From Jiangella mangrovi (GTDB lineage Bacteria > Actinomycetota > Actinomycetes > Jiangellales > Jiangellaceae): a stretch of DNA of 64,000 nt. Each line of letters begins with the position of its first letter. Position 1 is the first letter of the stretch. Where the stretch lies: NCBI RefSeq assembly GCF_014204975.1, contig NZ_JACHMM010000001.1, forward strand, positions 2,046,001 through 2,110,000. Reading direction: 5' to 3'. A program made the translations under genes and the position numbers. The notes under the pieces are model-generated. The model was not told the origin of the DNA. It did not search any database and worked only from the letters and a program-made list of their open reading frames with translations. Of this stretch, positions 3,674 to 6,219 are shown one piece after another.

Positions 3674-3794
3674 CTGCGGATACCTCTCGTGAGCACGTCG
3701 AAGCAGGTCCTGACACTAGCAACTGAAATGCCGGATATCGATGGCGGATCGGGTAACGGTCCAGGAACAACGCCGCCGTCGAGAGGTCTCCGCG

Positions 3795-4172
3795 ATGTCC
3801 GACTCGCCCACCTTCAGTCTGTCGGGGTTCGTCATCGGGGCGCCGGACCCGCGCGCCCTGGCCGACTTCTATCGGCGCCTGCTCGGCTGGCAGGTCCGCG
3901 ACGACGCACCGGAGTGGGTGGTCCTGCGCAGCCCCGCGGTCGGGCCGACGATCGCGTTCCAGCGGGAGTCGCGGTTCCGGCCGCCGGTCTGGCCGGCCGA
4001 CGGCGACCACCAGCAGATGCTCATGCACCTCGACATCGAGGTCGACGACCTCGAGGCGGCGGTCGCCCACGCCGTCGGCTGCGGTGCGCGGGTGGCGGAC
4101 TTCCAGCCGCAGGCCCACGTCCGCGTCTGCCTCGACCCCGTGGGCCACCCCTTCTGTCTCTACACCGACTGA
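3795..4172 (+). CDS. VOC family protein (glyoxalase-like domain)
   Basis: 125-residue VOC-fold protein. The FVIGAPDPRALADFYRRLLGW opening, the QMLMHLDIEVDDLEAA strand-helix pair and the VRVCLDPVGHPFCLY end are typical of the small glyoxalase-like proteins common in actinobacteria. Their substrates are mostly unassigned. The reading frame is open upstream to GTG 3741, but ATG 3795 is preferred: it has GAGAGG about nine bases upstream and gives the usual family N-terminus. The gap 3674-3794 holds the divergent promoters. Confidence 0.8.
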   Translation: MSDSPTFSLSGFVIGAPDPRALADFYRRLLGWQVRDDAPEWVVLRSPAVGPTIAFQRESRFRPPVWPADGDHQQMLMHLDIEVDDLEAAVAHAVGCGARVADFQPQAHVRVCLDPVGHPFCLYTD

Positions 4173-4179
4173 CCCGGCC

Positions 4180-4860
4180 TCACGCCCCCTGGCGGCGGAC
4201 CATCTCGGTGATCCAGGTGGGCGCGAACGGTGGGATGCAGCCGGGCGAGGTCGGGTAGTCCTTCAGCACCTCGAGGCGCTCGCCGATGCCGATGGCCCGG
4301 GCGCGCAGGGCGGGGTTCTCGATGCCGATCTGGGCGAGGCAGTGGTTCATCGCCCACTGCAGGCGCTCGGGCGCGTCCTTCATGCCGGCCTCGACGAGGT
4401 CGAGCAGTCCGTCGAGGTCGAGGCCGTCGGGCTGCCTCGCCACGCGGTCGGTGGTCAGCGCCCAGCCCGCGCTCGCGACGACGGGGTCGGGGTCGGCGAA
4501 CCAGGCCACCCGCAGCTCTTCGCAGTGCGGGCTCTTCCTCACCACGTAGTTGACCAGCCAGTCGTGCACCTTGGGGGCGCGCGTCTGGCGGATCATCGCG
4601 TCCAGCTCGTCGCGCTCGAACGCCTTCGGGCGGCAGATCAGCAGCGCCAGCAGCCGCGCGGCGGTGTCGTCGGTGGCCCAGAGCCGGCGGGCGAGCTCGT
4701 GCTGGGTCTTCAGCCGCTTCGCGACGGCGCGCAGCTTGCTCAGGTTGACCCCGTGGTCGTCGCCGTGCCGCTCGTTCACCTCGCGCGCCTTCGGGTCCTC
4801 GAGCGCGGCCAGCTCGGCCATGACCTCGGCCACCGTCGTCTCGGTCAGCGTCTCGGCCAC
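4180..4860 (-). CDS. DNA alkylation repair protein, AlkD-like HEAT-repeat family
   Basis: 226-residue all-helical protein resembling the AlkD/AlkC DNA_alkylation family, which folds as HEAT repeats and removes cationic alkylated bases. Visible are the N-terminal KAREVNERHG stretch, LARRLWATDDTAARLLA, MIRQTRAPKVHDWLVNYVV and ALTTDRVARQ, and a C-terminus with IGIENPALRARAIGIGERLEVL. GTG 4860 is taken as the start because GGGGAGG sits five bases before it; ATG 4878 has no such site. The catalytic Asp was not individually confirmed. It is a single-gene unit converging on the VOC gene (7-bp gap). Confidence 0.8.
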   Translation of the reverse strand: MAETLTETTVAEVMAELAALEDPKAREVNERHGDDHGVNLSKLRAVAKRLKTQHELARRLWATDDTAARLLALLICRPKAFERDELDAMIRQTRAPKVHDWLVNYVVRKSPHCEELRVAWFADPDPVVASAGWALTTDRVARQPDGLDLDGLLDLVEAGMKDAPERLQWAMNHCLAQIGIENPALRARAIGIGERLEVLKDYPTSPGCIPPFAPTWITEMVRRQGA

Positions 4861-4884
4861 GTGAGCCTCCCCGTCCATGGCCCC

Positions 4885-4901
4885 GATGCACGTCGGGCCG
4901 G
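4885..4901. repeat. 17-bp direct repeat, copy 1 (left edge of low-GC segment)
   Basis: GATGCACGTCGGGCCGG, identical to 6073-6089. The two copies bracket about 1.17 kb of lower-GC DNA carrying a DUF3800 gene. Copy 1 runs into a perfect 16-bp palindrome at 4900-4915. Confidence 0.8.
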
Positions 4902-4915
4902 ACCCGATCGGGTCC
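4900..4915. terminator. 16-bp perfect palindrome beside repeat copy 1
   Basis: GGACCCGATCGGGTCC is self-complementary and could form a short hairpin. No U-run follows on either strand, so terminator function is uncertain. Confidence 0.3.
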
Positions 4916-5048
4916 TGTCCCAGTATTCTTGCGGGTGGTCAGGAGGTGGACACCTCAGCCTCGAAGTTGTCGCATCCGACCGGCTGCTTGCCAAGCGACG
5001 CTCAGCAAGCGTAACCTTAAAGCCAGGAACATGTTCCGAACCCGCCTT
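4916..5048. other. 133-bp non-coding stretch inside the low-GC segment
   Basis: No convincing gene. Short ORFs here have no ribosome site and no codon bias. It contains a perfect 12-bp palindrome GGAACATGTTCC at 5026-5037, of unknown role. It may be a remnant of whatever inserted the DUF3800 segment. Confidence 0.4.
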
Positions 5049-5073
5049 AGACCCCGCCTCAAGTGCGGGGTCT
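5049..5073 (-). terminator. intrinsic terminator-like hairpin after the DUF3800 gene
   Basis: AGACCCCGC (5049-5057) pairs with GCGGGGTCT (5065-5073) across a 7-nt loop, eight bases past the stop codon of the minus-strand gene. The nine-pair stem is strong but lacks a clear U-tract. Confidence 0.6.
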
Positions 5074-5081
5074 TCGTGCAT

Positions 5082-5792
5082 CTAGGTGCGATTCGCCATC
5101 GGGTACCAGCATCTGCGATGAGCCACCTTCGGCTCGATCCTCGCCCATAGGTTGGCGTTCGCACGCCTCGCCTTCTCGTTCGGCTCAACATGTGTCTCAA
5201 TTCGCCGATACAGGAAGACCACCAGATCGATCGCTTGGACGAGGCGTGAGGCATTCGACGGCGCAAAGTGCAGAGTATCGACGATCTGTGTGATCTTCGC
5301 GGCTCGGTACCCCCACGTGCCTGACTTCCGATAACTAGCCAGGTCGGATCGGTGCTTGGCTTGCTCACCCACTTCATCTGCGATCACAAGTGCGTGTTCG
5401 CCGGCCGCCCTCGAATACTCATCTATACGTTCGAGTAGAGCCATCAGCACGAGAGAATGTGGCGGGTCCGGCTGGGGATAACGGTCGCGCAGGCCCGCAG
5501 AGTCCAAGCCGCGAAGGATGATTGCTCTCGCGTGTTCGCCGATCACGCTGAATGCGTCGTTGTAGACGCCGATCCTTGCGCGCGGCGGCAGGTCCTTCCA
5601 CCAGCCTTCACCTTGGAAAAGTTCGTAGCCGTGAAGCTCTGCGTCCGCGGGTACGCCATGGTCCTTAATTGCCTTCTCGACTACACCGTCGAGCGCCTGC
5701 CCAATGGCCTTCGCACCTGCGCCGTCACACAACAATGCGGCCATATAGTACCAGTCTCGACTAAAGGATTCATCGACGTACGCCAGAAGCAC
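5082..5792 (-). CDS. DUF3800 domain-containing protein
   Basis: 236-residue protein. The N-terminal AYVDES is the DUF3800 hallmark (acidic residues after the first strand, RNase H-like in relatives), followed by YYMAALLCDG, and later by ALVIADEVGEQ and LVQAIDLVVFLYRRIE, also typical. DUF3800 proteins are often found in mobile or defence-associated DNA; no biochemical role is established. Base composition (about 57 % GC in a sampled line) and codon use are unlike the neighbours. The gene sits alone between two copies of a 17-bp direct repeat and next to a tRNA, so it was probably acquired horizontally. No partner gene is visible. Confidence 0.82.
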   Translation of the reverse strand: MLLAYVDESFSRDWYYMAALLCDGAGAKAIGQALDGVVEKAIKDHGVPADAELHGYELFQGEGWWKDLPPRARIGVYNDAFSVIGEHARAIILRGLDSAGLRDRYPQPDPPHSLVLMALLERIDEYSRAAGEHALVIADEVGEQAKHRSDLASYRKSGTWGYRAAKITQIVDTLHFAPSNASRLVQAIDLVVFLYRRIETHVEPNEKARRANANLWARIEPKVAHRRCWYPMANRT

Positions 5793-6072
5793 GGCGACAA
5801 TCTACCTGAAATGCCAAGTTGCAGGCCAACTGAGGCGTCATGGCTGCGGGTCGTTGGTTCGACAGGGTGGGTCGACGTGGGTGTAGCGATCACGCAGCGG
5901 CACCCGTGGTGCCAACGGCACGGTGCGGGACCAGAAGGCCTCTATGAGCACGGCGCCATCGCGGTGAGTATGCAGGTGTTGGGCCCTGACCCGTCGAGGT
6001 CGGGTCCGCGCGGCGCACGCGGTCGCGATGATGCAGAAGAGGCTGATTCGAGTCTCGCGAGAACTGCAGTCG
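5793..6072. other. gene-free stretch between DUF3800 start and tRNA-Ser
   Basis: About 280 bp without a credible gene. Open frames crossing it on both strands run straight through the adjacent tRNA and have no family resemblance. Composition climbs from low GC near 5800 to the chromosomal average near 6000. It presumably holds the DUF3800 promoter; no clear -35/-10 pair was found. Confidence 0.4.
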
Positions 6073-6089
6073 GATGCACGTCGGGCCGG
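6073..6089. repeat. 17-bp direct repeat, copy 2 (right edge of low-GC segment)
   Basis: Identical to 4885-4901 (GATGCACGTCGGGCCGG). It overlaps the left arm of the tRNA-Ser terminator hairpin and lies 41 bp beyond the tRNA 3' end. Confidence 0.8.
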
Positions 6090-6109
6090 TCCGTGTCTCG
6101 GACCGGCCC
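6083..6109 (-). terminator. terminator hairpin downstream of tRNA-Ser(GCT)
   Basis: GGGCCGGTCC and GGACCGGCCC form a perfect ten-pair stem with a 7-nt loop, 21 bases past the tRNA 3' end. Confidence 0.6.
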
Positions 6110-6129
6110 TGCGATGGTGCTGGTGGTGC

Positions 6130-6219
6130 GGAGGCGGCGGGATTTGAACCCGCGAGAGGGTTTGAGCCCTCAACCCGCTTAGCAGGCGGGCGCCATAAAC
6201 CGGGCTAGGCGACGCCTCC
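6130..6219 (-). tRNA. tRNA-Ser (anticodon GCT)
   Basis: 90-nt type II tRNA read on the minus strand. Acceptor arms GGAGGCG/CGCCTCC pair perfectly. The anticodon stem CCCGC/GCGGG encloses CTGCTAA (anticodon GCT). There is a long variable arm as in serine tRNAs, and a T-arm with GGTTCAAAT. CCA is not encoded. It decodes AGC/AGU. The 3' side faces the low-GC DUF3800 segment, the usual orientation for elements inserted at tRNA genes. Confidence 0.95.

Follow-up and report, generated by a model that had tools for sequence, protein, structure and literature searches.

A probable horizontally acquired DUF3800–RNA module at the tRNA-Ser(GCT) flank of Jiangella mangrovi

Structured RNA motifs associated with DUF3800 genes were reportedly described by Weinberg et al. 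in 2017, and two of the families are said to be held in Rfam as RF02969 (DUF3800-I) and RF02968 (DUF3800-IX). The passages on DUF3800 in PMC11701678 name the families DUF3800-I and DUF3800-IX, those in PMC10910872 state an earlier link of the domain to ncRNA, and those in PMC10910872 and PMC12669027 describe the DUF3800 of some CRISPR loci as a nuclease with an RNase H fold. Neither an RNA of the type analysed here nor insertions at tRNA-Ser genes are described in the passages concerned of these three papers and of PMC7657543. No paper on DUF3800 with a retron was found in the collection searched. The DUF3800 domain, which has no settled function, occurs next to ncRNAs and in rare CRISPR loci.

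Here we have analysed a 64,000-nt stretch of the Jiangella mangrovi genome (the window) in which a DUF3800 gene lies beside tRNA-Ser(GCT) between two copies of a 17-bp repeat (Table 1). The reading that we prefer, at a probability of about 0.68, is that a horizontally acquired DUF3800–RNA module was inserted at the tRNA-Ser(GCT) flank, between an intact and a decayed copy of the terminator. The pairing of enzyme and RNA matters more than the repeat. Such a compact unit of gene and RNA, with a predicted RNase H fold and homologues on plasmids, raises a directly testable question, namely whether the enzyme binds, processes or obeys its RNA and whether the pair serves as a defence system, is a mobile element or combines a toxin with an RNA that acts as its antidote.

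The cassette and the tRNA-Ser(GCT) locus

The features from which the cassette was recognised in a first-pass annotation were borne out. The 17-mer GATGCACGTCGGGCCGG occurs exactly twice, with no mismatches, and no further copy is present in the window or in the 7.16-Mb genome with up to one mismatch allowed. GC content is lower inside the cassette (60.5%) than in the window (73.2%), DUF3800 is the sole convincing gene between the repeat copies, and there is no open reading frame for an integrase; a tblastn search of the window with the integrase of the congener G003 as the only query gave no match. Each copy does adjoin a palindrome: the right one overlaps the terminator-like hairpin, which ends 18 bp from tRNA-Ser(GCT), and the left one overlaps GGACCCGATCGGGTCC. 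The cassette is probably an att-like insertion without an integrase.

Table 1. Features of the cassette and its surroundings (window coordinates)
Feature	Position	Strand	Basis or remarks
Glyoxalase-like gene	3741..4172	+	PF18029, E 7e-25; left edge common to nearest congener G011
alkD-like DNA alkylation repair gene	4180..4878	-	PF08713, E 4e-23; adjoins cassette on left
Left 17-bp direct repeat copy, attL-like	4885..4901	+	Exact sequence search
Probable decayed duplicate of tRNA-Ser terminator, spacer and tRNA 3' edge	4902..4949	+	In-register match 28/48
Structured RNA element	4985..5083	-	R1 60.2 bits; P1 5038-5083, possible P2, predicted hairpin P3 4986-5010
DUF3800 gene, 236 aa, predicted RNase H-like fold	5082..5792	-	PF12686
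Gene-poor stretch between DUF3800 and right repeat	5793..6072	+	Short or weak matches elsewhere, no convincing gene
Right 17-bp repeat copy, within conserved tRNA-Ser flank	6073..6089	+	Congener comparison
Terminator-like hairpin of tRNA-Ser(GCT)	6083..6109	-	Fold of 6066-6130: z -4.2, 0/200 shuffles as good; conserved in congeners
tRNA-Ser(GCT), intact	6128..6219	-	ARAGORN; Rfam tRNA 54.2 bits

A bare match of 17 bp is weak evidence, because 20 exact direct repeats of at least 17 bp, the GATGCACGTCGGGCCGG pair included, are present in the 64 kb of the window; the repeat is significant through its context and not through the match itself. The 48 nt that follow the 17-mer match in register at 28 positions, a score equalled or exceeded at four of 63,753 other positions in the window, and the in-register stretch extends across the spacer as far as the first bases at the tRNA end. 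From this continuation the duplication probably spans ~65 bp and reaches the first tRNA bases, with identity dropping to 58% outside the 17-mer. In free local alignment the left duplicate matches the flank of the congener G004 best (score 29; reached in none of 1000 dinucleotide shuffles), and over all targets the best flank alignment was reached by none of 500 shuffles. The alignment is moderate with the flanks of G009 and G011 (5 and 10 of 1000 shuffles, respectively) and is not significant with the window's own flank (77 of 1000). With a strong alignment to G004 but none of significance to its own flank, the left copy is likely, although not certain, to be a decayed duplicate of terminator, spacer and tRNA edge. 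The duplication of the att core or tRNA end is present at both ends of the cassette and is decayed outside the 17-mer. Thus, the original picture is supported in so far as it describes an integrase-free insertion with duplicated ends beside a tRNA gene, but not in a repeat of only 17 bp, which is probably longer.

The locus was compared across 12 genomes of the genus, the window genome and 11 congeners. The tRNA-Ser(GCT) flank is conserved in the 11 congeners, nine of which carry the 17-mer once beside the tRNA in 3-kb loci (at most three mismatches); in G003 a resident 15-kb element carries it at its far end, and G011 lacks it beside the tRNA. From this conservation and the single 17-mer, we take the right copy to be the tRNA's own native flank. 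DUF3800 is absent from all 11 congeners and is therefore not a conserved vertical neighbour. Comparison with an empty site gave a mixed outcome: congeners have the flank in single copy, but no site is cleanly empty, because the nearest congener, G011, also lacks alkD and its terminator nearly abuts the glyoxalase gene. The alkD-like neighbour is no housekeeping gene in this genus, being present in 3 of the 12 genomes and broken in one of these; its start codon may lie further in (the G002 match begins at residue 11). The glyoxalase-like gene is 93% identical in L004. Gene content to the left of the tRNA, as given by a simple ORF caller, varies among the 12 genomes, and the 3' flank of tRNA-Ser(GCT) is an integration hotspot in the genus.

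The presence of DUF3800 in one of 12 genus genomes, its closest homologue found (in Micromonospora mirobrigensis, 74–75% protein identity) and its low GC content argue for horizontal acquisition. Ongoing movement, one sense of the earlier term non-autonomous element, is unsupported, since there is no second DUF3800 copy in the genus genomes examined.

The same variable spot could be read in another way, with the repeat being no att duplication: the left copy would have arisen by chance, gene conversion or slippage, and the DUF3800 gene would have entered by ordinary recombination. The abundance of exact repeats in the window is consistent with this, as is the score of the best second match to the tRNA flank, 35 in the window against chance values of 34 in G007 and 32 in G008, and the fact that congeners, G003 excepted, carry unrelated genes here with no clear second copy of the flank. 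This account is improbable in view of the in-register match and the shuffled flank alignments given above, the integrase-bearing element at the same site in G003 and the clear tRNA-end duplication at a second DUF3800 locus (L124, below).

The G003 element (L045) is 15.2 kb long and lies at tRNA-Ser(GCT) between two copies of the tRNA end, its tyrosine integrase (PF00589, E 9e-20) adjoining the full tRNA. As cargo it carries a protein kinase, a GntR-UTRA regulator, an IrrE-type protein and a Gp49-like/HTH pair. Next to the full tRNA, the spacer is that of the sister genome G010, which scores 24 with this copy and 14 with the far one, and the hairpin loop is that of the sister G009; on these grounds the crossover would lie to the left of the spacer, in TCGGGCCGGTCCTG, which overlaps the 17-mer. 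G009 is the closest sister of G003 by the neighbouring gene (92.5%), yet its spacer gives low scores with the copy at the tRNA (10) and with the far copy (14), and the placement, made from sequence comparison, is not clean. Integrase-arm-like double repeats, AACTGAGACNNAAACTGAGAC, are found at both ends of the G003 element, and similar ones, with at most two changes, lie 78–79 bp from the tRNA in G002, G004, G005 and G008; none is present in the window at up to two substitutions. At L039, L042, L044 and L048, where no resident element was seen, double AACTGAGAC-type repeats lie 78–79 bp from the tRNA and are likely scars of past integrations.

Several further candidates were set aside. Integrase remnants in the gene-poor stretch were rejected, as it has weak matches elsewhere and none to the G003 integrase, and a degenerate arm repeat to the left of 6073 was too weak (10/21 by eye). 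A hidden tRNA gene to the right of the left repeat has no Rfam tRNA match there; the anticodon-stem-like shape seen by eye is the P3 hairpin of the RNA element. In G010 a GNAT gene is flanked by a repeat pair, but chance hits in other genomes also reach its score of 31, and the pair was discarded. The 16-mer CACGTCGGGCCGGTCC, found in 28 stretches of viral contigs, was taken as chance: by eye, none of the 28 has a tRNA-Ser flank in the ~110 nt around the match, and ARAGORN found no tRNA in the 15 on which it was run.

The structured RNA behind DUF3800

A structured RNA element directly behind the DUF3800 stop codon, missed in the first-pass annotation, is more conserved than any other feature of the cassette. 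The window copy belonged to the training set of the covariance model (R1) that gives its score in Table 1. The fold of 4985-5085 has a z of -3.6, with one of 200 shuffled sequences folding at least as well. Taken by itself, the part that follows P1 does not fold better than shuffled sequence in the window copy (z 0.3), and its z ranges from +1.3 to -3.4 in other copies. The DNA match to the M. mirobrigensis homologue runs ~48 bp past the end of the gene. The element shared by homologues in Actinomycetota consists of GCACGAA, a nine-pair hairpin and TAAGGC, often with further hairpins. Patterns written after the first seven loci had been seen located it behind 27 of 34 DUF3800 loci, four of the 27 in a variant form, or behind 25 of 32 distinct loci when repeats (L116 = L059, L134 = L130) are removed. 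The seven loci in which the patterns missed it (L119, L127, L090, L131, L091, L092 and L132) are distant homologues, fragments or, in the case of L119, one with a copy recognisable by eye as diverged; the L132 fragment has a model match beside it.

The alignment supports the structure. GCAC and AAGGC are invariant in 21 of 21 rows, and 98.4% of cells are paired in these 21 distinct rows. Five pairs show double-sided changes, a number reached in 4 of 500 shuffles, and the covariation score was reached by none of 500 shuffles and by no slid version; further pair types are no more numerous than in shuffled alignments, 411 of 500 having at least as many. Covarying structure next to DUF3800 genes, the defining property of the DUF3800-associated kind of RNA, is thus present. 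An outer closing helix was not accepted as a general trait: the longest complement averages 5.3, against 4.8 in shuffled sequences, although it reaches 10 in L111 and 9 in L122. The variants L112–L115 (Microbacteriaceae/Dietzia) were left out of the R1 model. These loci, on plasmids of Curtobacterium, Frondihabitans, Rathayibacter and Dietzia, have another conserved element behind DUF3800, AACGAAG-hairpin-CTTCGGCTGGCAACGTTCCGGTAACCGGCCCGTCGT and near variants, which is probably a second type of DUF3800 RNA.

Searching 393 genomes of the class with R1 under strict filters gave 16 places in 13 genomes at E <=0.01. Nine of these lie below 1e-6: six follow DUF3800, one (G114) follows what is left of its C-terminus, where tblastn finds 15 identical residues out of 27 with L119 (E 7e-6), and two are beside a LysE-type gene without DUF3800. 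The other seven matches are weak (E 5e-4 to 8e-3) and were left out of the members. DUF3800 itself is present in 11 of the 393 genomes, and the RNA matches accompany the six proteins with at least 43% identity and not the five with 27–40%. A second run covered 35 genomes chosen from 240 (17 DUF3800-positive, 18 negative) and gave 19 matches. Sixteen of them adjoin DUF3800 or a fragment of it and come from 16 of the 17 positives, and three lie elsewhere, two of them in DUF3800 negatives; most positives match by construction, because most had supplied the model. Among eight strong matches outside the training set, three are beside DUF3800 or a remnant (G114, G474, G565) and for five the profile search detected no DUF3800 within ~2 kb on each side. 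From these counts, the RNA is strongly but not exclusively tied to DUF3800. The strong copies without a detected DUF3800 are L161 (G401), L162 (G395), L163 (G565), L165 (G019) and L166 (G020), and they lie behind or near unrelated genes, namely those of a 339-aa protein, a VapB-like antitoxin and LysE-type transporters and a glpD-like gene (named by eye).

Could the element be an intrinsic terminator, inherited with the gene and with no role of its own? It begins at the stop codon and has a GC-rich hairpin, and the weak model matches resemble ordinary terminators or coding sequence. We nevertheless regard this as unlikely, since a terminator needs neither the GCAC nor the AAGGC that are invariant outside the stem in every row, no T run follows the hairpin, homology among four loci reaches 86–125 nt behind the stop, and the element survives with a decayed gene in G114 and with no detectable gene in five places. 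The 111-nt element has no match to the DUF3800 families of Rfam 15 at E up to 10, nor do 1.6 kb of the window or 10 further loci at E up to 5, and its pattern was not found in viral contigs. The RNA is therefore a DUF3800-linked structured RNA outside the curated Rfam 15 families, the link between DUF3800 and ncRNA being already in print.

The DUF3800 protein and its loci elsewhere

The protein matches PF12686 above the gathering score (E 4e-11, 44.3 bits against a cut-off of 21), and seven acidic residues (D7, E8, E52, E121, D139, E140 and D189) are invariant in 21 sequences. A structure predicted from 16 sequences has a pLDDT of 91.4, and its closest solved fold is that of Bst-RNase HIII (VIA-align Z 10.5, 165 aligned, rmsd 5.2); the best Foldseek E is 8.8e-5, with TM-scores of just 0.33–0.49 in the RNase H2 rows. 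On this model the enzyme is predicted to have an RNase H-like fold. By sequence, a search of the PDB gave no match below E 0.35, and DUF3800 is unmatched in NCBIfam and PHROGs. The window and L059 proteins are likewise unmatched by PADLOC-DB models at E up to 1, and L088 has a weak AbiEi match alone (E 0.008). Homologues occur on 13 plasmid records, and no relatives were found in viral contigs or phage records. On a plasmid of Micromonospora zamorensis (L111, 3210-4711) a gene annotated as of the AbiEii/AbiGii toxin family is followed by DUF3800.

Among three Micromonosporaceae genome loci (L122, L123 and L124) and the Micromonospora plasmid locus L111, DNA homology extends only from 2–34 bp before the gene to 86–125 bp behind the stop, and with these limits gene plus RNA is what the four loci share. 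The loci L088 and L125 match over their whole length and seem to represent one locus in closely related genomes. At L124 (G525), DUF3800 and its RNA stand on their own between tRNA-Ser(TGA), which is intact, and a decayed second copy of the T-arm, acceptor end and terminator of this tRNA, ~1.07 kb away. This duplication scores 67 against a shuffle maximum of 31 (n = 1000). No relatives of the G003 integrase were found within ~9 kb on either side of the unit, and its orientation relative to the tRNA is opposite to that in the window. The window and L124 are the two of 27 distinct DUF3800 loci screened that have a tRNA-linked flanking duplication. A flanking repeat above the shuffle maximum at L118 (17.0 against 15.5, 47 nt) was set aside as probably coding; that at L116 scores 15.0 against 14.5, and the same stretch at L059 has a shuffle maximum of 16.0. 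At L127 (G511), a stretch resembling a tRNA T-arm lies ~0.9 kb behind a DUF3800 fragment without the RNA element.

Duplication of a tRNA end is a known mark of tyrosine integrases, and the RNase H fold is common to DDE transposases and RuvC-like nucleases. The latter would allow a bolder proposal, in which DUF3800 and its RNA form a self-mobile minimal ribonucleoprotein element whose enzyme, perhaps RNA-guided, inserts itself at tRNA-Ser ends and duplicates them without an integrase. Two cassettes of ~1.0–1.2 kb from different families, with DUF3800 and RNA as the sole convincing content between copies of tRNA-Ser ends, would fit such an element, as would the DNA homology among four loci that stops at gene and RNA. 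However, 25 of 27 distinct loci have no tRNA-linked duplication, the module is turned differently relative to the tRNA in the two cases, RNases HII/HIII and not transposases have the closest solved folds, and the tRNA-end duplication is what a tyrosine integrase leaves. We consider the proposal very improbable.

Site-specific insertion at tRNA-Ser ends has probably hit the module, or larger elements that left it as their last cargo, at least twice. Self-movement is less likely than relic cargo or mobilisation in trans, either of which explains without new biology why no integrase was found in the two cassettes. In the acquired module that we favour, an RNase H-fold DUF3800 enzyme would be joined to a structured RNA of ~100–120 nt encoded directly behind it. 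Site-specific recombination, crossing over within or beside the 17-mer, would have made the duplication; the integrase responsible would have acted in trans or been lost afterwards, leaving the module as relic cargo or as a minimal non-autonomous element. The enzyme may bind, process or be controlled by its RNA, and we offer only tentatively that the two act as a mobile defence or toxin-control ribonucleoprotein. The ends of tRNA-Ser genes are in any case places where such modules can settle.

Comparison with known systems

The nearest likeness is to the DUF3800-associated RNA motifs, which, as in the window, are structured RNAs next to a DUF3800 gene; the window RNA differs in matching no Rfam 15 DUF3800 family, and a 2017 motif outside Rfam may correspond to it. 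The CRISPR-linked TPR-DUF3800 of some Cas12a2 loci, as presented in the relevant passages of PMC10910872 and PMC12669027, has the DUF3800 domain and the RNase H fold in common with the window protein, whereas the latter has no TPR match and its cassette no other convincing gene.

RNases HII and HIII share the predicted fold with DUF3800, which has invariant acidic residues in addition, but identity is 8–18% in the listed rows and TM-scores are modest. Unlike these universal enzymes, DUF3800 is tied to a structured RNA and is patchily distributed.

With tRNA-targeted tyrosine-integrase elements, represented by that of G003, the window cassette shares the same tRNA-Ser(GCT) and the duplicated tRNA end and terminator, and the crossover zones probably overlap. 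It differs in having a single convincing gene and neither integrase nor arm repeats. In its arrangement of one gene followed by a 3' hairpin element, the cassette also resembles an integron gene cassette.
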